Of a stretch of 64,000 nt of DNA, positions 7,711 to 31,513 are shown piece by piece (within the stretch, counting starts at the first letter, position 1; every line of letters begins with the position of its first letter). A program made the translations under genes and the position numbers. Origin of the DNA: Isoetes taiwanensis (Eukaryota > Streptophyta > Lycopodiopsida > Isoetales > Isoetaceae); the NCBI GenBank assembly GCA_021234155.1, contig JAJEKV010000098.1, forward strand, positions 1,619,248 through 1,683,247, read 5' to 3'. Under the pieces are notes generated by a model. It was not told the DNA's origin and did no database searches. It saw only the letters and a list, made by a program, of their open reading frames with translations.

Positions 7711-8977
7711 TAGGAGAAACCCTAACTTTCCCATTTTCGTCCATAGGGTTCTAGAGCTCTGTTTTGGCTGCTCCAGGAGTCAAAACCGCCTCCCAGACTC
7801 TGTCTAAGCGAATTGCACCATTAGTTCTCCTTGATTCAAGCGTTTCAGCAGGATGGTCGAGCTCAGAGCAGGAGGAGCGAGCCAAGGATCAGGTATTTGG
7901 TCAATTGAATAGCCTAAACCGTCTTCTAGTCATTGTATCAGTAGCTTTAGCCTATTAAATTGCCCTTAGCAGCCATCTAGATCTCTAGATACCGGACTCT
8001 AACTAAAGAACCTAACTCTATGATATAGATTAGATCTAGTTCTTTAGTTCTTCTGTGATGTATATGGATGGTGTATCTCTGTGAACTCCTTGTATTGGGA
8101 AGGGGGGTAGAGACCTAAAGCTTGGTAGTAGATGCTCCTAGAGTAGCCTCTCTAGCTGCTTTGTAAATTCGGCACAGTGTACAAGAACCACACACGGTTG
8201 TGGGTGAGGGGCCGGGCCCGGCTTATAAGGAGGTTAGGTGTTCGACTCTTGAACGATCCCTCCGGTGTGTAAGGCCTGGGGGATCATTGTGACTAGGTCT
8301 AATGGCTTGCCACCGAAAGTGCGGGCAAGGCATGGGCTCGACTGCAGTGGAGTGGTGTACACTTTCCCAGTGGGTTCGGTCGAATAAGGGCGGTGGCCCT
8401 CTAGTCACCTTGAGTCAGCATGTAGACCTGCGGAGGGAGTGATCCCTACACGCCCCATCGGAACTGGGGAGATGCAACCCGGGAATAGCCCCTTTGGCTA
8501 TGCATCCGTGGGCTACTGGTCAGTCCCAACACTTTTCAGCCTACTACGCAAAGTGTGTGGGGGGGCGGATGGAGTGGACAACCCTAAGCCATGTTCTTAT
8601 GCCGACCAAATCCATTGCCATGAATTGCATGCGCAATGAACTCGGAGACCCAAGCCGCCGGGTCATCCCCTTGAGTCCGAGCCTTGGGTAGGATTCCCTA
8701 TGTGAGTCTTGCTGATCTTTGTCTATCGGGATATGTGGTGAACCATCCTTCGTGATGGTCTTATGATGTTGATGTATGTACTCTTGACATGTATATTACG
8801 CTTCAGCAGACTAGGTAGGCCACGAGGGAGGCAGGTAAAGGACCCCTTCATTCTTCCCACTGGAACTCTTCAAGGTTGCAGTGATACGTGGAGGGCCCTA
8901 TATTAGCATGGAGCTGGTATGGGGGGTGAACTCCTGTTTGTATACGGTGAGTGCACCGTATATGAGTAGGGGACGTC

Positions 8978-19985: not shown

Positions 19986-21467
19986 TTTTCGGGATGTGAA
20001 TACCGGTATTCAAGTCGATACCTAAAAGAGGCGTGTTTGCTTGGAATATAATGATGGGTCAGCGAGGGTATGGGTGTTTGAATCAAGCCCTTAGCATGTT
20101 TAGGAAATGCTGAAAGAAGAGGGCATTGTTCCGCACAAATTTACCTTAATAGGGGTAATAAAAATCTGCGGTAGTTTAGGATGTTTTGAGCCCGGAAAGT
20201 TTGTACATGCTCACATATCTAAAGGTGAATTTGAGTCGGATGTTTGTAATGGGCGAGGCAATCCTTAGCATGTATGGTAAGTGTGGAAGTTTGGAAGATG
20301 CTTGCCAGGGCATTTAGTAAAATTGAGATTGTAGAGAGATGTGGTAGTTTGGACTACCTTGATTGCAAAGATATGTAGAAAGCGGGCATAAAATGGAGGC
20401 CTTTCAAGCTTTCCAAGAAATGAAACAAGGAGGATCAAGCCCAAACAAGATCACATTCCTTACCATCTTTGAGATAATGCGCTACAATTCACCTTATATT
20501 GCATGTGTGGTGGTTTGCGCTTGTATTTTAAACAGAGAATTTAGCTTGGATCTTGCACTTGAATGCATGTATAGTATGGCGGATGTGGCGATTGTAAAAG
20601 ATGCTTATGATGTTTTTTATTAGAATTCCTAAGGTGCTTATGATGTTTTTATTAGAATTCACGTAATCACACGGACGGATATAATTGTTGCTAATGTGCG
20701 AGAATGGGCAAGCAAAAGGGTGCTCTTACTCTTTTCCACTTGATGCAACTTGGATAATATTACGTCAAATTGTCAAATAATGTTACTTTTATGGCCATTC
20801 GGATGCATGTTCTAACATGGAATGTTTAGCCAATGGGTAATTAGTACATGCTTATATTAGAAAATGAGGAACCGAATGTGACACTTTGCTATATGTAATG
20901 CCCGGTTAACATGTATGGAAAGTGTGGAAATTAATGAATGCATGTTGGATATTTAATAGAATGTTGGAGCAGAATGTCATGTCATGGACTTCAATAATTG
21001 CAAGGTGTATCTTGGAAAATGGACATGCCAAAGCTTCTCTGCAATGCTTTTAGAAATATGCAGATGGGTAGTCGAGATAGATGGGTAGTCGACACGATAA
21101 GGTCACATTTATACACGTTCTTCGCATATGTTATCATTCTCTACCAGAAGGTAAATTTGTGCATGCTTCTATAGTAGGGTTTGGATGTCAATCGACTTGT
21201 TGGTTCGTGCATATGGCTCATATGGGGTATTGCCACACGGCAATATAGATTATATTCACATGTTGTTATTTTTGATAAGGAGCCGAGAAAATCAAACTCT
21301 TTTGAGTTTCCTTCTCTACTTAAGTCATTCTCAATAGCCTTAAAATTTCATAACTATCTATTTTGATAAGGGTCATAAACTCCCCTAAAAAGAGTTGTTC
21401 TTTTTGTTTATCTCTCAAAAATAAATACAATACAATACTTTCAATCAAAAAAAAAAAAAAAAAAAAA
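19985..21467 (+). pseudogene. PPR-repeat pseudogene, probable processed retrocopy
   Basis: Decayed plant pentatricopeptide (PLS-type) repeats can be read in shifting frames. Examples are FAWNIMM near 20040, MYGKCGSLEDA near 20270, YVESGHKMEAFQAFQEMKQ at 20371-20430, and WTSIIARCILENGHAKA near 20980. PPR proteins bind organelle RNA. The region has many stops. It ends with AATAAA at 21420-21425 and a 21-base A tract at 21447-21467, about 20 bases further on. No introns interrupt the repeats. That combination suggests reverse transcription of a polyadenylated mRNA by a LINE. The 5' end is uncertain. Confidence 0.7.
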
Positions 21468-22082: not shown

Positions 22083-23316
22083 TGGTCATGGGAGGAGCTC
22101 CTTGTAGACGACGTTGGTTGTAGTGTTTGTCTTATTGTCTTCTAGGAGAATTAGGACGTCTTCTCTTTTTCGTATTCGGGTGAGTGTTGTGTAAAGTTGT
22201 CCGTGGGGAAAGACTTCACTGCGTAAGTCAATGACAATCTTGTCGAGTGTGAGTCCCAGACAACTGTTGAATGTTGTTGAATACGCGGGTCGCAGTGGAA
22301 GTTGGCGTCGGTGGCATGTCCATGGCCATTTTTCTGGGTGAATGTTGTCTTTTTGTTGTGGGTCCCCTGTGAGTAATTTTACTTGCACGAATCTGTTATG
22401 TAATGAGGTTACGATGACCTTAGCATTTTTAACGAGGCCTCGTCACGCCGAAGCGCCTTTGTGATGTGGCATATCGTATTGGGCTTTAGTCGAAGCTCGT
22501 GTTGTGGCAATGATGGGTCTCTGTAACCGTTTAAAAAGTCTGTTGTTGCCATTGGGTGGTCGTCTACGGTTTGGTCGTTTTCTATTAGTCTGTCCACGCT
22601 GTAATAGGGTTTGTCTGGATCTGAGAGAAGTTGTATGACTGTGTCGTTGAATTCGTCGACAGTGATGTTTTTAGGAATAAAATTCCTCTATTTTCACACG
22701 CTTCCGGGTCTTTGACGATTTGTTTGTTGTATAGAAAATCAACTGCTTCTTGTGGGTTTGTGGTGGTTTTGAATAATGTCAATGGCACGTTTTCCAGTAG
22801 AGTTCCTTCTCCGACTGCATCGACGAAAGACACGAGCTCGGGATCTCCGACATTTCTAATTGGTTCATTGAGTTCAAGAACTTCGAAGTGGTTTGATAAG
22901 TGCGACGATATTATGGAAGCATTTATTGTCGCTGTCTTGCTTGCTTTTTTGACGATTGGTGCAACTTGTCTGAAGTCTCCTGCTGCTATAAATAGTTTTC
23001 CTCCAAAGGGTGCATTCGTTCCTGTTATCTTTTTAAGCAGCACGTCAACTGCCTCTATGACTGCGCGGTTAACCATGGGAAACTCATCCCATATAATGGC
23101 AGTTGCTTGACTTATTAGGCGTGCCCTTGGGGAATGTGGATCGAGTAGCGAATGGAGATTAATATTGTTCTCAATGACAGGGATTTGAAATAAGGAGTGT
23201 GCAGTTCTACCACCAGGGTAGAGACATGAAGCAAGTCCAGTAGTAGCACATGGGAGGACAATGTTTCTTGATCCTCGTATTCGAAGGCATAGAACAAGGT
23301 TTAAAATGAAATACAC
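22083..23316 (-). pseudogene. Helitron-type PIF1 helicase remnant, no Walker A
   Basis: Read on the minus strand from 23316, the protein has the PIF1/Helitron helicase order: ATTGLASCLYPGGRTAHS, motif II WDEFPM, GGKLFIAAGDFRQ, then LNEPIRN (to about 22860). After a frameshift near 22670 there is a linker (22620-22409) and the C-terminal motifs FNSCLGLTLDKIVIDLR and QLYTTLTRIRKREDV (22290-22090). Helitron helicases unwind DNA for rolling-circle transposition. The nucleotide-binding Walker A that should precede ATTGLAS is absent and no Rep domain is visible upstream, so this is a 5'-truncated, frameshifted fragment. No Helitron terminus (CTRR with hairpin) was identified. Confidence 0.85.
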
Positions 23317-24530
23317 TTATTTAAGAAGTGCGTTTGAAAGATTCCTTTGAAAATTTTTGAAAGTTCAAAAAAGAGGCAAAAAAGGGAGCAGGAAAGATTG
23401 TTGAACACTTGGCGGTCAATAAATCCCATAAAAAGTAGCACTTTTATAGAAATGTGTTGGGAAAAAAAAATAAAAAAAAATAAAATCAAAAGAGACTGTT
23501 TTGAGGAGGTTAACGCAAATATTAAAGAACCAACAAATTAATTGTTGTTAAAAAGGAAGCATATGCAGTGTGTCCTTTTGTACAAAAAATCTGCAAATGC
23601 CTTTAAAGTGCAATTTACAAAAAGTAAAAAATAAAGTATGTGGAAAAGAAGTGGTAGTTGCTGTAATTAGACATTGCTGGAGACAGAATAAGAGAATCCA
23701 TTTTAACTTTCTTAGTGGCATTAATGCGAACATTAGAGAACATAAATTACAGTTCCTCGTACAAATCTATACCGACATTTTAAAATTGAAACATGTCGGT
23801 AGATAATTTATCTGACGGAGGTTCCTCCCGATCTCTGGGGCTCCCATCTCCCTTTTGCTTGCGTTTCTTGTGATGCCAATGAGCACGAGACACCGCCGAT
23901 TCTAATGGTACTTGAACCGGCCGCTTGGGGGGCTCTACCTCCATCGGTTCGAGGTCTACAAACTCCACCCCCTCGTCTTTTCTTCCCGTAATAGGAGGCT
24001 GGATTTCAGTGTAGGTGCCTTTGACATCCCTAAAGACCATTTTTTGCTCCTAACTCCTCATTTTCATCCGGAAAGGACTCCTGGGGAGTTTATTCGAGTT
24101 CGATGAAGCCGATTTTGTGCGGGTCAATGTTAATCGACACCACGTTCGCCCGCTTTTAAGAGCGCATATAGCTGTGGTCCCGGTTCCCGAAAAAGCATCC
24201 AAAACCCGGTCAGTGGAAGCGTGAAAACCATTGTATCATTGTTAATTAGCCTTTGGGGTTTACGGTAGTGAGACACCACAACGCCTTTGCCTCTGCGGGG
24301 TCTCTAAACTACGTAAGGCGGCGGGAATTGGAATGCATTGCACGGTGGGGTCTTCTCACCTTGAGTGTTAAAGTGCACCATGGTCTTCTTGGTGTGGGTA
24401 TTGTAGTAGCCTATGTGAAAATGTTCGGCGGTGACTAACCGTGGACCACCACCATGACCTTTAACGTTTGTCTTGACCTTAGAGAGAAAAGAAAAGGTAA
24501 GTCGAAAAGTACACGACCAAGGGACTCTTT

Positions 24531-24625
24531 GTATAAATTTATCTGTGAGGTCTCCTCATATAAATTTATACCATGGGTTCCCTTTGTATAAATTTATACA
24601 AAGAAGGACATAGTATAAATTTGTG
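24531..24625. repeat. Palindrome cluster in the last intron of the methyltransferase gene
   Basis: Four copies or near-copies of the TATAAATTTATA core start at 24531, 24558, 24585 and 24611, spaced 27, 27 and 26 bp. The copy at 24585-24600 is a perfect palindrome with TG/CA ends in place of GG/CC. All lie in the intron between exons 6 and 7. Confidence 0.9.
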
Positions 24626-25712
24626 CAGCAAAATCTTTTTAAAATACAAAAAGCAAGCGACTTCGAGGCTTACCAGATGCAATTTTCAAAGCCGGGCGTT
24701 GCGGACCAATGAAACGGGTTTTAACACGGACATCGTTTGAAGGTTGGAGTGAAAGATTATGAGTCTCCAATTTGCCCGGACAGCGTGATGTCCTTTTAGA
24801 CCATCCAAAATGCTTTTACTTGCACATGAGTAAAGGCTTCATCATCAAAAACACTGTCCTTGATCTTAAAACCATAGGGAATGTCTGCTATGCACAATGT
24901 AAAGTTCTGCTTATCCAACAGTGTCCCTAGTTTGGTGCAGTCACCATGTACAACTTTGTACAAGCAGTCCTGGCCATATGTTGTAAATCTTTCGTAGCCA
25001 CCCTCGAGCGCTTTTCCACTACACGCTTGCTTACGTTTCGATGGCTTTTTTTAATCTTTGCCTTTCCTCTTTTGCCCTTTGAACTAGATTCAAGAAGCCT
25101 GCTGGCAGACCTTTCTTCTTGTTCTGTAAGAAAGGAGTAAGGCAGAGGCACAAAAGCACAAAAGCACAAAGCAGTTCTTCTTACAAACTCACCCAGCCAC
25201 TAAAGTTGACAGCATGTTCTCGTATTATACTGTCTATTGTACATGTCGGGTAAAGAAGTTTGCACTCCTCCCAGTCTTCTAAATTTAGTTGCTTCATTAA
25301 CTCCGACTGGCATGTGACAATGTCCTTTTGACTGCAACCAAGAAGAGAGTTAGAGATGGATTGAGTACAGTGCATAGTAAAGTCTCCTTACGTCTTTGCT
25401 TCCTTAGCCATTTCGTCGAGAGTAAATTCTTTGGCAACAACTTTTTCAAGAAGCCGCACAAATATTTCTTTGCTCTTCAGACCCTGTAATTGTGTCCATG
25501 GCACTATGCTCATGTTTTTTTGTTTGGACTCAGAAACTTTTTTTGATTTTGTGCCAGCGCTGCTGGATTGGTCTTTAAGTTCACCATCTTCGAACATGCA
25601 GAAGATTCTTTCTTGCAGATCCCACACCTGTTAAAAATTGAGGACCGTTAACTCAGCAGCTTAATGGCTAAGGCCAGTTGTGAAACAACTAAATCTAGGC
25701 AGGCGAGGCCAC

Positions 25713-25838
25713 GGTATAAATTTATCCCGTTCATGCCCGCGGTATAAATTTATACCGTAGTGGGCTGAGGTTCTAAACGTCATCGTTTTAGAATGGTATA
25801 AATTTATACCGAGTCCTGGTCCGGTATAAATTTATACA
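25713..25838. repeat. Palindrome cluster in intron 3 of the methyltransferase gene
   Basis: Copies of GGTATAAATTTATACC start at 25713 (one end degenerate), 25741 and 25795 (both perfect) and 25823 (last base pair changed). A further perfect copy is at 26176-26191 in the same intron, beyond the MITE. The MITE target site (ACAG) overlaps the end of the 25823 copy. Confidence 0.95.
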
Positions 25839-25839
25839 G

Positions 25840-26160
25840 GGGCATAAGCATGCTACACCCTATAAAAAAAAGTACCATTTAGGAACCATAAAACTACCTA
25901 AAAAGGTATCCAACACTGGGTACTGGGTAATTTTATAATATCTCAATAACTACAAATGTTAAATTGAATGCATTCATTTTGACCTCCAATAGTATTGTCT
26001 CTATCTTAACCTTGAACATTGATATGCTTTTGACATTTTATATTGAAGTTTTGAATTAGTTTTGACCAAAAGAACAAGAAAATAGTACCCAATCCAAAAG
26101 TACCTAGTGCAGGTACTTTGGCAGGTTCCAAAAATGGCAGGGTGTAGCATGCATATGCCC
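25840..26160. mobile_element. MITE copy 1, 321 bp, 4-bp target duplication ACAG
   Basis: Terminal inverted repeats of about 21 bp start GGGCATAAGCATGCTACACC on the left and are mirrored on the right, ending ATGCCC, with one mismatch. The flanking target duplication is ACAG (25836-25839 and 26161-26164). The interior is AT-rich with no frame and contains AACACTGGGTACTGGG, shared with the copy at 30287-30592. It lies in intron 3 of the methyltransferase gene. Confidence 0.88.
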
Positions 26161-27875
26161 ACAGTGGCATTGCCCGGTATAAATTTATACCGATACAGGA
26201 CGCGGTAGAAATGTCTTTTAATGCACATATTCTGGTAAACATTGTAAGAAACTTAAACACAAAGGAGAAAATACTTACTTGGCCATCTCTGAACACAAGT
26301 TGAAAGTAGTTGTCATATTGCTTTACCGCCATCATAGGCTTCTTATCAGAGTCATAACTTAGACAGCATTCTGTCACACAAGCCTCCCGAAGTTCTTGGA
26401 GCTTGTTCTTTTGCTTCTTAAAGTCATCTCCATGCAACTGCTTGAACTCAATGTATTCTCTGTGCATGAAGCGAATTTTGTCTATGAGGCTCATCTTCAA
26501 CCTGAAGTCATTGTCCAGGTTGTGACTTACAGCTATGACTTTGGCCTCCTCATCTGTCAACCCGACATATATATGGGCTTCCACACTCTTCCAAACCTCA
26601 TTCCTGCTCTCTTCCTTAGACAATTCTTTCCTAGCTTTATAACTATGTGTTCCGCCGAGAACGTAGTAGGTATAGTCCTCAAAATCGGCCTTCCTGTAAT
26701 CCCTGAGCTCTTGGACCTGTTCTCTGTTAACCATGACAACCAGAGGAGACACATGGGCATGTGGATTTCTTCTCATTCTTTGCTTTAGTATGCCCACATG
26801 TGCTGCGTACAACTTCCGAACTTGAAGCACCCTGACCCCGTCTTCATTCTTTGGCGGTCGCTTGATAGTGCTTAAGGATAAGGAGATTGTTTGTTTTAAG
26901 AGCTTTGTTTCATTCACACGTTTCAAAATTGCTCTTGATTTAGGGTTTCATGACAATATCGGCCCCTGGCGCCTTTTGTAGTGCTTCTGCTGATTCTCCA
27001 ATGGTCAATGCTTTGGTCTTTCTCGATTTTTTCGGTGGCTCTGTGGTGGTGACCAAAGCTTGCCTTTTTCCTCTTCCTTTAACCACAACCTCCTCTTCCT
27101 CTTCCTCTTCTTCTTCCTCCTCTTTGTCTTTGTCTACCTCTTCATTTGTACGTGGGTACCAGTACCCCTTCACAAGAACTTTTTCAGCACAAAGAATAAC
27201 GGAGGATAAAATGTCTACTAAGTCCGGCAGTCAGGCAATCTCAGTTAGCGTTCAGTGTGTATAAATTTATACGAGAAAGCAACAAACAAAAGAAAAGAGA
27301 TCATAATACTTACGTAACCAAGTTTGTTGTTCTCGGAAATATACTCATATACATCTTTTGGCTTGCACATGCTTATTCTAAACATTATGGTGCTCAGGAT
27401 GTACTCAACAGCCCCGTCGTCATTAATGCAAGTCATAATGATTTCATCGTCATTTTGTGAGGCCACCAAACTCGTCATTTCTCCAGCCGGGTAATAATCC
27501 TTAGCCTTATACTTACCCCTTCCTGTCTTGTTGCAAAGGTAAAGGTAGGAATCAGTGGGGTAGCGTTCCCTAGTGCCCCTGTGAGTGTACCATGTCACAT
27601 CTCTGAGTTCGTAGGATTGTGGCTTTGGAGCTGAAGGCTGACCTTTGAGTTTAAGTGTTATCTTTTGGCTGAAAACGCAAGAAAATCAGGCTTAAACACC
27701 GTCAGAAAAGGCTTTAACACTACTTTCTTTTGTAATTTTGTACTAAATATGTGGTCTTTGAGAAGCTATTCTAGGTGTTACTGTACAGCTTTTTCCGGTG
27801 CTCTAACTCTAAAAACACTGTAAATTTATGGAAACTGTGTAATTTTCTACAAATTTTTAAAGATCTGGCCTTTTC

Positions 27876-28137
27876 GGTATAAATTTATACCGAAAGAGGT
27901 CTCCACGGTATAAATTTATACCGCAGAGTAATCCGCGGTATAAATTTATAAAAAGGGATTGTCGGTATAAATTTATACCAGTTCGTCATCCTCCTCGGTA
28001 TAAATTTATACCGAGAAGAACACACACGGTATGAATTTATACCGGGAGACGTCCTGCGGTATATCTTTAAGCTGTTTATGTTCAGACTCGGTATAAATTT
28101 ATACCAATGGGGTTCAGCCACTGTATAAATTTATGCC
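27876..28137. repeat. Nine-unit palindrome array in intron 1, step about 31 bp
   Basis: Units of the 16-bp palindrome GGTATAAATTTATACC start at 27876, 27907, 27937, 27964, 27997, 28028, 28058, 28090 and 28122, with steps of 31, 30, 27, 33, 31, 30, 32 and 32 bp. Five are perfect and the others carry one to several changes. The bases between units (about 11-17) are unrelated to each other. The step is close to three turns of B-DNA, so bound proteins would lie on one face. The array sits wholly within intron 1, between the donor at 28213 and the acceptor at 27669. Confidence 0.95.
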
Positions 28138-28456
28138 GAGAGAGCACGACCTAGAGAAAGTTTAAACTACTAAAAGAAACCTAAACTTGAAATGGTACGG
28201 GTTAGAAACTTACGTGGCCATGTCCGTATGAAGATCCTTATAGCTCTTTGGAAGTCATAAAAGGGGCAAGTATATAAAGGCGGATCATGAAGCGCCGAGC
28301 CAAGCGGCGATATCTGAGATAATGAGTCGCCTCGCCTCCATTAAGTACTACTGCCAATTCCTCTTTCGTATAGTTTCTGTCCACAAGTTTTTATATACAG
28401 CGTTCTAAAGTTTTCGTATGATATTATACCCTCCTTGTTTGCTTTCAATGTCTTGT

Positions 28457-28641
28457 TGTATAAATTTATAAACTTCGTATAAATTTATACCACTCTTTGT
28501 CTCTTGTGCTTCTGCTCGGTATAAATTTATACCCTCCTTGTTTGCTTTCACTGTGCAACTGTATAAATTTATATGCTTTACTATATAAATTTATACCACT
28601 CTTTGTCTGTCGTTGTTACGCTTTCGGTATAAATTTATGCC
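28457..28641. promoter_or_regulatory. Palindrome cluster between the divergent methyltransferase and transposase-like genes
   Basis: Six copies of the palindrome core start at 28457, 28475, 28518 (perfect), 28560, 28581 and 28626. They lie in the 790-bp region between the minus-strand start codon at 28221 and the plus-strand start at 29009. The position suggests operators or origin-like sites shared by both genes. Open frames here that repeat YKFIP are by-products of the palindrome, not proteins. Confidence 0.75.
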
Positions 28642-29008
28642 GTCTGGCTAGCGACCTCATATGGCGGAGGAAGAGAGCGTCCAGAGCCACCCGTCGCTTC
28701 GCCCGGCTACCTCCTCCCATGGTTTTCACACCAATGGTTGCTTTCGCCAGAAACCGACTTTCGACTTTTCGAGCCCGACCCTCCGATTGCGGCACATCGC
28801 TACCACCGCCAATGCGGTTCACGCCACCACCTCCGGCTCACGTTGCCGTTTACCACCATCCATGCATTTCACTCCTCCGAACCACTGAGACAACAAGGCT
28901 ACCAGTCCTCCACCCCGTCGTTTTTACTCGGTAGAGCCCGGACTCCCTCCTCCTGTTCATTTTAGTAAAGTCTCCTTTGTTCAGCCTAGACAGCCCACAC
29001 GGTCGCAA

Positions 29009-31513
29009 ATGACTCCATCACCATCCATTGCACTACAGGATGCCACTTTTAGTGAAAGCAGTCAGCACCATGCTACTCCTGTGTTTTATGAGACTTCTGG
29101 AGCTACTCAACTACGTCATCCGCCTCGACTTCTTTTTCCAAGGGAAAAGCAAACTTCTTCCACACAGGATCAACACACGCCTAATCTCACAACATCGACA
29201 AGTACAACGTCCATTCCTACAATGTCAGATGAAGAAACACCTCAAGTTGATCTCTCAGACGAGGACCTACCAAAGCCACAAGACTCTATGTTCGAATTCA
29301 AAGCTCATGCAAGTAAGAATCTTAAGCGAAACTTACACAAGAAAGCATGTACATCCCAAAGAAGAAAGAAACTTATGGACGAGGCTCACTTGAGGACAAC
29401 ACATACAAAGCACTGTTGTTCTCAACGTTGTTTGCTTAAGATTGGACTAAAGGATTTGAGGTTGATTCGTGATAGTTACAGTTCAATGACTCTGCTAGAC
29501 CAAAGGGGCTACTTGGCCTTCAATATTAGGCCAGATTATGGTGAGAAGTTTACTTACACAGCTGGTGGCCACACCGTCTGTCAAACAACCTTTAAATTGA
29601 TTCATGCCTTAGGCAGCAGACGACTTGACCGCCTGAAGAAAAGGCTTGACAAGAATCCAGGCATTAATGACTACGGCCACTCAGGAGGTATATCCAGAGT
29701 TCATGCCCTTCAATGTGTTTCCTGGATGGAAGGTTTCTTTAAGGAGTCTTGCGAAAAACTCCCTAACAGCCCTATGTACCACTTGAGTGACAACTTCACG
29801 AAACGTGAAGTCTACGATAATTATAAGGACATGTGTGTTGAGGCTGGAGAACGCCATGTCTGCTACTCTTACTTTACTGTGCTCTGGAAAAAAGAGTTTT
29901 CTCGCGTGTCCATTCCTAGAAAGCATCGGATGTCTGTTTGTGCTACATGCTCTGAATTAAAAGCTTGGAGACAAAATGCAAGGACACTTCACACTAAAAG
30001 TAAGCTTCCAAAATGTGTTCTTGCCTAGTTCTACTTAAAAGTAGGTTCTTTCCTAAACACGTTTTCATTTCAGATGCATTGAAAGAGAAATTGAACAAGC
30101 ACAGAGAACAACAATCTTTGGAAAGGAGAAAATTGACAAAACATAGGAAGAAAGCACTGGAACAACCACACAACTACATATCGGTTGTTATTGATGGAAT
30201 GGACCAGAAGAAGACCACCCTACCACATTTTGTCAATGTGTCTAAGGATGCTGCTGAAGAAGATTTCATACACCTACATGTTGTTGGGGTGAAAGCATGC
30301 TAGGGTGTACCATCTAAAGTTAACTACCCAAAAAAGTACCCAACACTGGGTACTGGGAACTTGCATAAATGTCTCAATAAACAATAAGTTTGAGAGTTGA
30401 TTTCATTGATTTTAGTCTCTAATAGTATTGTTATCCTCTAATACTATAGATTGACATGTTATTGACCTTCAATTCAAAAGTTTGGAATTGATTTTAATGC
30501 AAAGAAAAAACAAAAAGTACCAGTTTTAAAAGTACCCAGTGAAGGTACTTTTGAGGGTTCCAAAAGTGGTACACCGTAACATGCTTTCACCCGTTGGTGC
30601 TATGGTATTTAATGGAAAACTATCTTGCAAGGCATTTTTGAACTATCCAAACATTCATGCTGATCCAAATCTCACTATCACAATATTGAATAAGCTTCTT
30701 TCCAATCTAGAACTTATACCACCGGTTCTATATCTTCATCTAGACAACACGACAAGGGAAAATAAGAATCAGGCGTTGTTTGCTTACTGTGCTATGTTAG
30801 TAGAGAAACAAATCTTCAAGAAGGTGAATATTGGTTTCCTGCTTGTTGGTCATACACACGATCAAATTGATCAGATGTTCAGTAGGTTCTCTAAACGTCT
30901 TGCTCGAAAAAAAAGCTCTCGACCTACCAAGCAATGATTGAGGTTATCCAAGATTCCTACAATCCTCGGCGGACACATCGAAGTTATTGGAAGAAACTTA
31001 TGATTTCAAGGAATGGATTTTTCGGAGAGATCAACTGGGTCACTGTGCTATTGAACCCTTGAGAAACATTACATTTCAGCATCAGATCAAAATTTCACTT
31101 GTAGATGGCAAGGCCATCTTACAAGGAAAGAAATATGCCACATCCTTGCAAGTGGCGGGGGCCAAGATGTATTCAATTCATTCGCACCATCCCCAATACT
31201 AGTTCCATTATCTCTGCAGAGCAAATGCCTCTAAAAAGCTTGAAAGAAATCACAAAGAGTAAAAAGGAGGGAAAACCATTTGACTCAAACAAATCATTGG
31301 ATTATATTGAGACAAGTATTCAGTCGTTGCTCTAACCACTTTGGGGAGGCAGATGCTTTATGGTGGCCTCCGTTTTTTTCTCGGCAACGTGACATGTTGC
31401 AAGCTTCATTACAAGGTCGAAGAACAGTTACATTCAACTGGCCATCTAGGCAAACTCTCCCTGTGCAAGTTGAGAATCAAGAGGAACATGTAGAGGATCG
31501 AGAATGCTTATAA
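29009..31513 (+). pseudogene. DUF7869-like, DDE/RNase-H-type transposase-like gene, interrupted by a MITE
   Basis: Exon 1 (29009-29998) and exon 2 (from 30073) join across a 74-bp GT..AG intron. A Ser/Thr-rich N-terminus is followed by a basic Cys/His region, then SIPRKHRMSVCATC near 29910. Exon 2 has VVIDGMDQKKTTLP (30185-30225) and, after the MITE at 30287-30592, LHLDNTTRENKNQ (about 30730-30770) and VGHTHDQIDQMFS (about 30845-30885). These three acidic blocks are the hallmark of the DUF7869 family and resemble a DDD/E catalytic triad, so I infer a transposase. Removing the MITE and one 4-bp duplicate restores the frame exactly. Other frameshifts occur near 30910, 30975, 31195 and 31335. 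It is divergent from the ParB-methyltransferase gene. Confidence 0.65.
30287..30592. mobile_element. MITE copy 2, 306 bp, 4-bp target duplication GTTG, within an exon
   Basis: The termini GGGTGAAAGCATG and CATGCTTTCACCC are perfect 13-bp inverted repeats, and the match continues imperfectly to about 25 bp. The flanks carry GTTG on both sides (30283-30286 and 30593-30596). The interior shares AACACTGGGTACTGGGAA-like text and repeated AGTACC/GGTACT units with the copy at 25840-26160. It splits the transposase-like gene between the first and second acidic motifs. No frame is present inside. Confidence 0.92.

Follow-up and report, generated by a model that had tools for sequence, protein, structure and literature searches.

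We analysed a 64-kb stretch of contig JAJEKV010000098.1 of the lycopod Isoetes taiwanensis, hereafter the window, in which an 8.2-kb DNA transposon carries numerous copies of a 16-bp palindrome, GGTATAAATTTATACC, in its noncoding parts. The transposon contains two divergent genes, one encoding a predicted N6/N4 DNA methyltransferase domain (PF01555) behind a domain modelled with the ParB/sulfiredoxin (Srx) fold, and the other, its head-to-head partner in complete copies, encoding DUF7869 (PF25273), a domain of unknown function that we regard as a putative transposase. Both genes are broken in the window copy. The features are collected in Table 1.

A search of the window for GGTATAAATTTATACC with up to three mismatches returned 23 sites (9 perfect and 14 with one to three mismatches), compared with a mean of 0.44 and a maximum of 3 in shuffled sequence. 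All 23 lie inside the transposon, and none was found outside it in the 64 kb at this threshold; 22 fall within 24557-28641, and the remaining one, with three mismatches, is at 23758. The first-pass annotation had listed nine perfect copies, all of which are present, and had estimated about 24 copies with about 15 variants, in good agreement with our count. It had confined all of them to 4.1 kb and had seen none in the rest of the window, which is correct for 22 sites and for everything beyond the transposon, but not for the degenerate site at 23758. Its claim that the sites avoid coding exons was borne out, as 0 of 23 site cores overlap coding matches once the tails of open reading frames (ORFs) past the splice limits (inferred from GT-AG sites and from comparison with another copy, L009) have been trimmed.

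Table 1. Coordinates of the transposon, its genes and its palindromic sites, given as positions of the window
Feature	Position	Strand	Remark
DNA transposon (class A)	23293-31495		left end intact, right end lost; homology limits and left terminal inverted repeat
Left terminal inverted repeat, AACAAGGTTTAAAATGAAA...	23293-23322	+	same ends in 13 two-ended copies
ParB-fold/methyltransferase gene, broken copy	23780-28221	-	exon limits by GT-AG sites and comparison with L009
Methyltransferase region with introns	24050-25630	-	motif IV ADIPYGF, motif I DAFSGTGTT
ParB/Srx-fold domain exon	26270-26947	-	model pLDDT 79.5
Exon of N-terminal domain P_e1	27314-27668	-	fastest diverging between classes
DUF7869 transposase-like gene	28889-31495	+	PF25273, E 7.1e-38; insertion at 30288-30592
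Palindrome group, methyltransferase intron	24557-24600		pattern search
Palindrome group, intron 3	25713-26191		interrupted by an insertion of about 320 bp at 25840-26160
Lone site, intron 2	27258-27273		pattern search
Main array, intron 1	27876-28137		spacing 27-33 or 62 bp
Intergenic array, in the promoter region shared by the divergent genes	28457-28641		pattern search

The transposon and its copies

The carrier is a DNA transposon with terminal inverted repeats (TIRs) and target site duplications (TSDs). Homology between the window and five compared copies begins at 23288-23293 in four of them (L006 matches only from 27267) and ends at 31495 in all five, from which we conclude that the window copy, with its left end only, has lost its right end. 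Both ends were recovered in 13 copies; they read AACAAGGTTTAAAATGAAACGCACT and form inverted ends of 31-34 bp in L004, L005 and L007. A perfect 4-bp TSD flanks 11 of these 13 copies, L038 fitting 5 bp instead and L007 showing none. Complete long copies measure 8.7-8.9 kb (L009, L011, L012). The gene that the first-pass annotation had treated on its own thus makes up half of a mobile element, and the sites that it had tied to this gene alone flank the DUF7869 gene as well.

In the genome of 1.658 Gb, GGTATAAATTTATACC occurs exactly 7,218 times, compared with none for the reversed control and about one expected from base composition by our own estimate. This is the count that the first-pass annotation had proposed as a check on its view; neither a scatter of the 16-mer without enrichment at these genes nor an intact homologue lacking such sites was seen. 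Eight clusters of the 16-mer were fetched as ten-kb stretches (L001-L008; 8 of 10 among the matches listed, with clusters C5 and C14 left out), and all eight lie in the element or in short derivatives of it. Exons of both genes are present in L001, L002 and L006; L003, L004, L005 and L007 are non-autonomous copies of 2.2-3.4 kb with two ends, and L008 has a left end. The short two-ended copies (L003-L005, L007, L032-L036 and L038) retain 6-10 sites in 10 of 10 cases, either because the sites are useful in copies mobilised in trans or because they were passively inherited. Eight left ends were fetched separately, of which L031 and L037 have no right end within 2.6 kb and hold 2 and 0 sites, respectively, at up to two mismatches. 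A first look at the genome gave 5,311 candidate transposase exons and 3,229 candidate ParB exons, with at least 111 and at least 151 matches reported.

The sites occupy the introns of the methyltransferase gene and the intergenic stretch. We counted 12-bp cores with at most one mismatch in 20 loci, leaving aside the short copies, L006, L022 and L030, and again trimming ORF tails past the inferred splice sites. Of the 340 sites that fall in the coding span, 0 overlap coding matches, although these matches take up 57.6 of its 110.1 kb. Between intron 1 and the transposase start, the sites of eight copies with this palindrome (class A, below) are less divergent than the spacers in 28 of 28 pairs; between the window and L009, for example, 6.2% of site columns differ compared with 16.8% of the sequence between sites. 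Because sites are picked by their likeness to the motif, the comparison was repeated with sites defined in a third copy, which gave lower site divergence in 168 of 168 comparisons that share copies and are not independent (pooled, 12.8% vs 37.8% for spacers).

Four palindrome classes in one genome

A scan for repeated palindromes that presupposed no particular sequence, in L013-L018 (from a DUF7869 search), L019-L030 and L039-L044 (from a PF01555 search), uncovered four classes of palindromes at equivalent positions in divergent relatives of the element within the same genome. Class A, TATAAATTTATA, the class of the window, also occurs in L019, L022 and L023; class B, TATGAATTCATA, which departs from A by one base in each half-site, in L015, L021 and weakly in L030, everywhere mixed with A-like sites; class C, TATTCCGGAATA, in L013, L014, L016, L025, L028, L040, L041 and L044; and class D, TATGCGCGCATA, in L017, L018, L026 and L027. 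L039 and L043 have no repeated perfect palindrome and contain 3 and 9 class C cores with at most one mismatch, and the scan for repeated palindromes found no array in L020, L024, L029 and L042, the last of which contains a single class C core and lacks a detected ParB domain. In shuffled loci (L001-L018 and the window, 20 shuffles each in 50-bp blocks) no palindrome core exceeded two copies. Exact genome-wide counts were 2,585 for GTGTATTCCGGAATACAC and 1,551 for CTATGCGCGCATAG, with none for the reversed controls. All four classes fit the frame TATNNN/NNNATA, in which TAT and ATA are placed three bases from the dyad.

Each of the 23 loci in which a ParB domain was hit has three or more cores of its own class with at most one mismatch; 20 of these loci were found via protein searches and three (the window, L001 and L002) via the palindrome. 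Cores of other classes are absent from them at the same threshold, save for a separate class C cluster near the end of L001 and for the overlap of A and B, in which a one-mismatch core can score as both classes. The suggestion of the first-pass annotation that the gene may carry its own recognition sites is upheld to the extent that palindromes accompany the gene in every ParB-bearing locus sampled and that related genes have palindromes of their own. Relatives outside this genome were sought among viral and prokaryotic contig collections, where none was confirmed, a result with no bearing on other eukaryotes.

The spacing of adjacent sites falls into pools of about 21, 28-33, 41-42, 52 and 62-63 bp in class A, 41-42 bp in class C and 40-42 bp in class D. 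Resultant lengths for a 10.5-bp period are 0.76 in C, 0.49 in A (11.1 bp being slightly better) and 0.59 in D (8.9 bp being better), values that are descriptive only, since the copies are related. Imperfect class A sites are mostly one-sided (107 single mismatches); of those with two mismatches, 11 of 65 keep the symmetry, above the 2% or so that we estimate for random changes, and these may represent one inherited variant. The symmetry data neither require nor exclude a hairpin or RNA as the form that is read. The innermost base pair of class C, its central CpG, is the most variable position (40 mismatches in nine loci), as expected if it were subject to 5-methylcytosine methylation and deamination.

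Several observations concern the surroundings of individual copies. The class C cluster at L001 (9119-9624), which includes a 34-bp perfect palindrome, adjoins the class A element and is probably a neighbouring class C derivative. In L037, two class D cores (21-73), of which one is degenerate and the other exact, lie directly beside the left end of the class A copy, an arrangement suggestive of insertion of this copy into a class D element. Outside the element, L007 has a further array, made up of six GGAATATTCC palindromes, several of which follow one another at 24 bp (7920-8200). L011 is 95-97% identical to the window over much of the transposase half and only 73-75% identical in the methyltransferase half, which suggests a mosaic produced by recombination between subfamilies. 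The window copy itself has received two insertions of about 305-320 bp (25840-26160 and 30288-30592) that resemble miniature inverted-repeat transposable elements; they have inverted ends (AGGGTGTAGCATGC-like) and a shared inner repeat and are absent from L009, and the one at 30288-30592 splits the transposase gene. PIF1-like helicase ORFs at 22088-23316 (PF05970, E 8e-41), which we take as a possible mark of a Helitron, adjoin the left end of the transposon, and it may be that the latter inserted into a PIF1-helicase-bearing element. An ORF at 20363-20623 may encode a plant pentatricopeptide repeat protein, which would suggest a land plant host, and Rfam at gathering thresholds gave 0 matches within the window.

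Which protein may read the sites

On the minus strand, the ParB-fold/methyltransferase gene encodes an N-terminal domain, P_e1, an acidic linker, the ParB-fold domain and the methyltransferase. The frame of the window copy is lost twice, between the exon parts for the linker and for ParB and directly past methyltransferase motif I. That this gene combines ParB and a methyltransferase, as the first-pass annotation had it, is supported on both counts, by the model for the former and by sequence for the latter. PF01555 matches the joined exon translations of L009 with E 2.9e-11, best around the motif I end (DAFSGTGTT in the window, DAFSGSGTT in L009), and motif IV, recognised by eye (ADIPYGF in the window, ADIPHGF in L009), precedes motif I; the gene encodes an N6/N4 DNA methyltransferase domain, of predicted activity. 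The model of the ParB-domain exon (its pLDDT, the predicted local distance difference test score, is given in Table 1) aligns in VIA-align with ParB, Noc, PadC and KorB at Z 7.7-9.8 (best 7bnk_B, Z 9.8, root-mean-square deviation (rmsd) 2.5 over 96 residues) and with sulfiredoxin at Z 6.7-7.6, which indicates the ParB/Srx fold. Helices follow residue 150, across which the alignments are loose (rmsd 6.3-6.5). The profile rows for this exon were other, weak ones (DUF6551 at E 0.002-0.02 and other weak rows; an IgA-protease domain at best E 0.00024, below the cut-off where one is given). The AlphaFold model of P_e1 (pLDDT 67) has no confident fold; P_e1 matched no Pfam family at a useful E-value and nothing below E 1 in a PDB sequence search, and its structural rows (DNMT1 RFTS, PH-like; Z at most 5.5) were too weak for use.

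In gene trees the palindrome classes cluster together for both the ParB-methyltransferase and the transposase. Between classes A and B, P_e1 has a mean identity of 23% and the ParB domain one of 57%; the corresponding values in the transposase are 41% (N-terminal part) and 74% (DUF7869 core). Because P_e1 and the transposase N-terminus change fastest, they are the best candidates for the determinants of specificity. We favour, with roughly an even chance of being right, the explanation that the palindromes are target sites of a transposon-encoded DNA-binding protein, most likely the ParB-fold methyltransferase, that serves self-recognition for anti-silencing or autoregulation. This reading is preferred because the layout closely matches that of the VANC systems discussed below. 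Also in its favour are the 7,218 exact sites compared with none for the reversed control, the position of all eight fetched clusters in the element, the four classes at equivalent places, the own-class cores of every ParB-bearing locus, the avoidance of coding matches, the low divergence of the sites, the lack of any site in the loci that have exons of the transposase alone (L020, L024 and L029), the modelled fold and the PF01555 match; which protein binds, that it methylates and what the regulatory effect is are inferred. The protein would bind as a dimer to TATNNN/NNNATA sites clustered in the introns and the shared promoter of the element, and would occupy the DNA of the sites or methylate it to N6-methyladenine (6mA) or N4-methylcytosine (4mC). 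Each family would thereby regulate or de-silence its own copies only, including the short non-autonomous ones, with the central hexamer of each lineage acting as its address. Such a system would work like the VANC anti-silencing of Arabidopsis VANDAL elements, with machinery of another kind, an enzymatic one.

A number of observations weigh against this explanation. The assignment to ParB comes from a single comparison, that with VIA-align: Foldseek returned nothing at E of 0.001 or less for the ParB-domain model (its best hit, at 0.0031, being sulfiredoxin), profile searches of Pfam and PDB sequences gave no ParB family for the exon, and a clear helix-turn-helix (HTH) of the kind that reads parS is not evident in the model. 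P_e1, the domain that varies with class, has no recognised fold, and its remnants in the class A copies L004 and L008 are only about 30% identical to that of the window. Since class follows the phylogeny of both genes, the reader could be the transposase; the rapidly diverging N-terminal domain of the methyltransferase protein itself is another candidate. L030 has sites and no ParB gene detected in the 5.4 kb fetched, and the three transposase loci without sites (L020, L024 and L029) may simply be truncated. Finally, the central hexamer of class D contains no adenine, so that 6mA would be confined to the TAT arms unless the mark is 4mC, and the central CpG of class C is kept in just 49 of 91 sites.

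If the transposase were the reader, the arrays would be internal binding sites of the DUF7869 protein, needed in cis for excision or for transposase expression. The retention of sites by all short two-ended copies, the position of an array next to the transposase gene and the class divergence of the transposase N-terminal part (mean identity 0.41 between A and B and 0.26 between A and C) speak for this possibility, which we consider unlikely, because the sites are internal rather than subterminal, many of them lie in introns of the other gene, and the (possibly truncated) transposase-only loci lack them. It is harder to attribute the arrays to a host transcription factor, or to a bidirectional promoter whose palindromic TATA boxes are repeated. 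The occurrence of TATAAA on both strands in class A and the position of arrays in intron 1 and in the promoter region that the two genes share are what such an origin would produce; however, classes C and D occupy the same places without TATAAA, and a host factor predicts no lineage-private codes, which makes this account improbable.

The ParB-like fold suggests a further mechanism, namely nucleotide-gated loading of a protein clamp at the palindromes, as at parS, followed by spreading along the element. Such a clamp would be the favoured self-recognition by the ParB-fold methyltransferase spelled out as a mechanism; since the two overlap, the probabilities that we attach to the different readings do not sum to one. 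In VIA-align the best structural matches are to ParB, Noc, PadC and KorB, and the sites are palindromic and of parS-like length; on the other hand, sulfiredoxin reaches comparable scores and tops the Foldseek list, the parS-reading HTH is not evident, the GGTHS motif of the domain in our judgement resembles sulfiredoxin as much as ParB, and we know of no eukaryotic precedent for a ParB-type clamp. We therefore give clamp loading a small probability, slightly below that of the host-factor account. Least of all do we believe in a passive, functionless tandem duplication of the minisatellite type: quasi-regular spacing and the variation of the intron 1 and intergenic arrays from 12 to 24 sites by copy are in its favour, yet it would leave unexplained why the palindromes are so much better conserved than the spacers and why one code recurs across several separate noncoding blocks and in none of the coding matches.

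Relation to known systems and significance

VANA is the transposase of the VANDAL elements. Arrays of the VANC motif have been described within introns of two genes, VANC21 and VANB21, and ahead of a third, VANA21, for the most part outside exons (PMC5735166), and the motif differs between related families of this sequence-specific system (VANDAL21 and VANDAL6; Hosaka 2017, PMC5735166; Sasaki 2023, PMC10398659). These systems agree with the present family, which likewise has family-specific motif arrays in the noncoding parts of the element, in that a transposon-borne accessory gene is accompanied by short noncoding motif arrays (in introns and upstream) and that the motif is switched among families. 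VANC motifs, in contrast, are of 8-9 bases, and the word "palindrome" is absent from the main text of PMC5735166, whereas the present elements have perfect palindromes of 12-18 bp and a partner gene that encodes DUF7869, and their accessory protein combines a ParB-like fold with a DNA methyltransferase. The likeness meant here is one of layout and target switching, and the function in Isoetes is putative. With bacterial ParB-parS systems (Noc, KorB) the element shares a ParB-like fold, according to the model, and palindromes of about 16 bp near the gene; it differs from them in being a eukaryotic transposon with a methyltransferase fusion and many sites per element. The methyltransferase resembles the beta-class N6/N4 enzymes (MboII, CcrM, RsrI) in its matches to PF01555 and PDB sequences, chiefly at the motif I end, and in the order of motifs IV and I, but it is preceded in the same protein by an N-terminal domain of no recognised fold and a ParB-fold domain, and its activity is a prediction. 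Fungal DNA transposons that encode TET/JBP exist (PMC12730594), and they too have a DNA-modifying enzyme encoded beside the transposase; theirs is a dioxygenase, not a methyltransferase, and target-site arrays are not described in the portions of that paper drawn on here.

In the open-access literature, among the matches listed, we recognised no description of a ParB-methyltransferase or a DUF7869 transposon. The kind of system is a variant of self-recognition encoded by transposable elements; its molecules, its palindromic code and the switching of that code within a fixed frame are new to our knowledge. It is tempting to go further and to envisage a eukaryotic transposon family with a self-addressing epigenetic system, in which a ParB-fold methyltransferase, loading on palindromes private to each lineage (with fixed TAT arms and a swappable central hexamer) within the introns and promoter of the element, coats the copies of its family or marks them with methylation of the bacterial type, so that they evade host silencing, the code having been switched at least three times in one genome. 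As a whole, this picture is speculative, and we think it more probably wrong than right. Four natural variants of the code at equivalent positions make the correspondence between protein and site directly testable, and the methyltransferase leads to a clear prediction of 6mA or 4mC at thousands of defined sites in a eukaryote, a disputed topic. Proteins of this kind might also serve as tools for sequence-specific epigenome editing. If the proposal is true, these elements would join VANC as a second example in which transposons evolve DNA addresses of their own in order to recognise themselves, and would be the first known to us in which the protein concerned also contains a candidate DNA-modifying enzyme.

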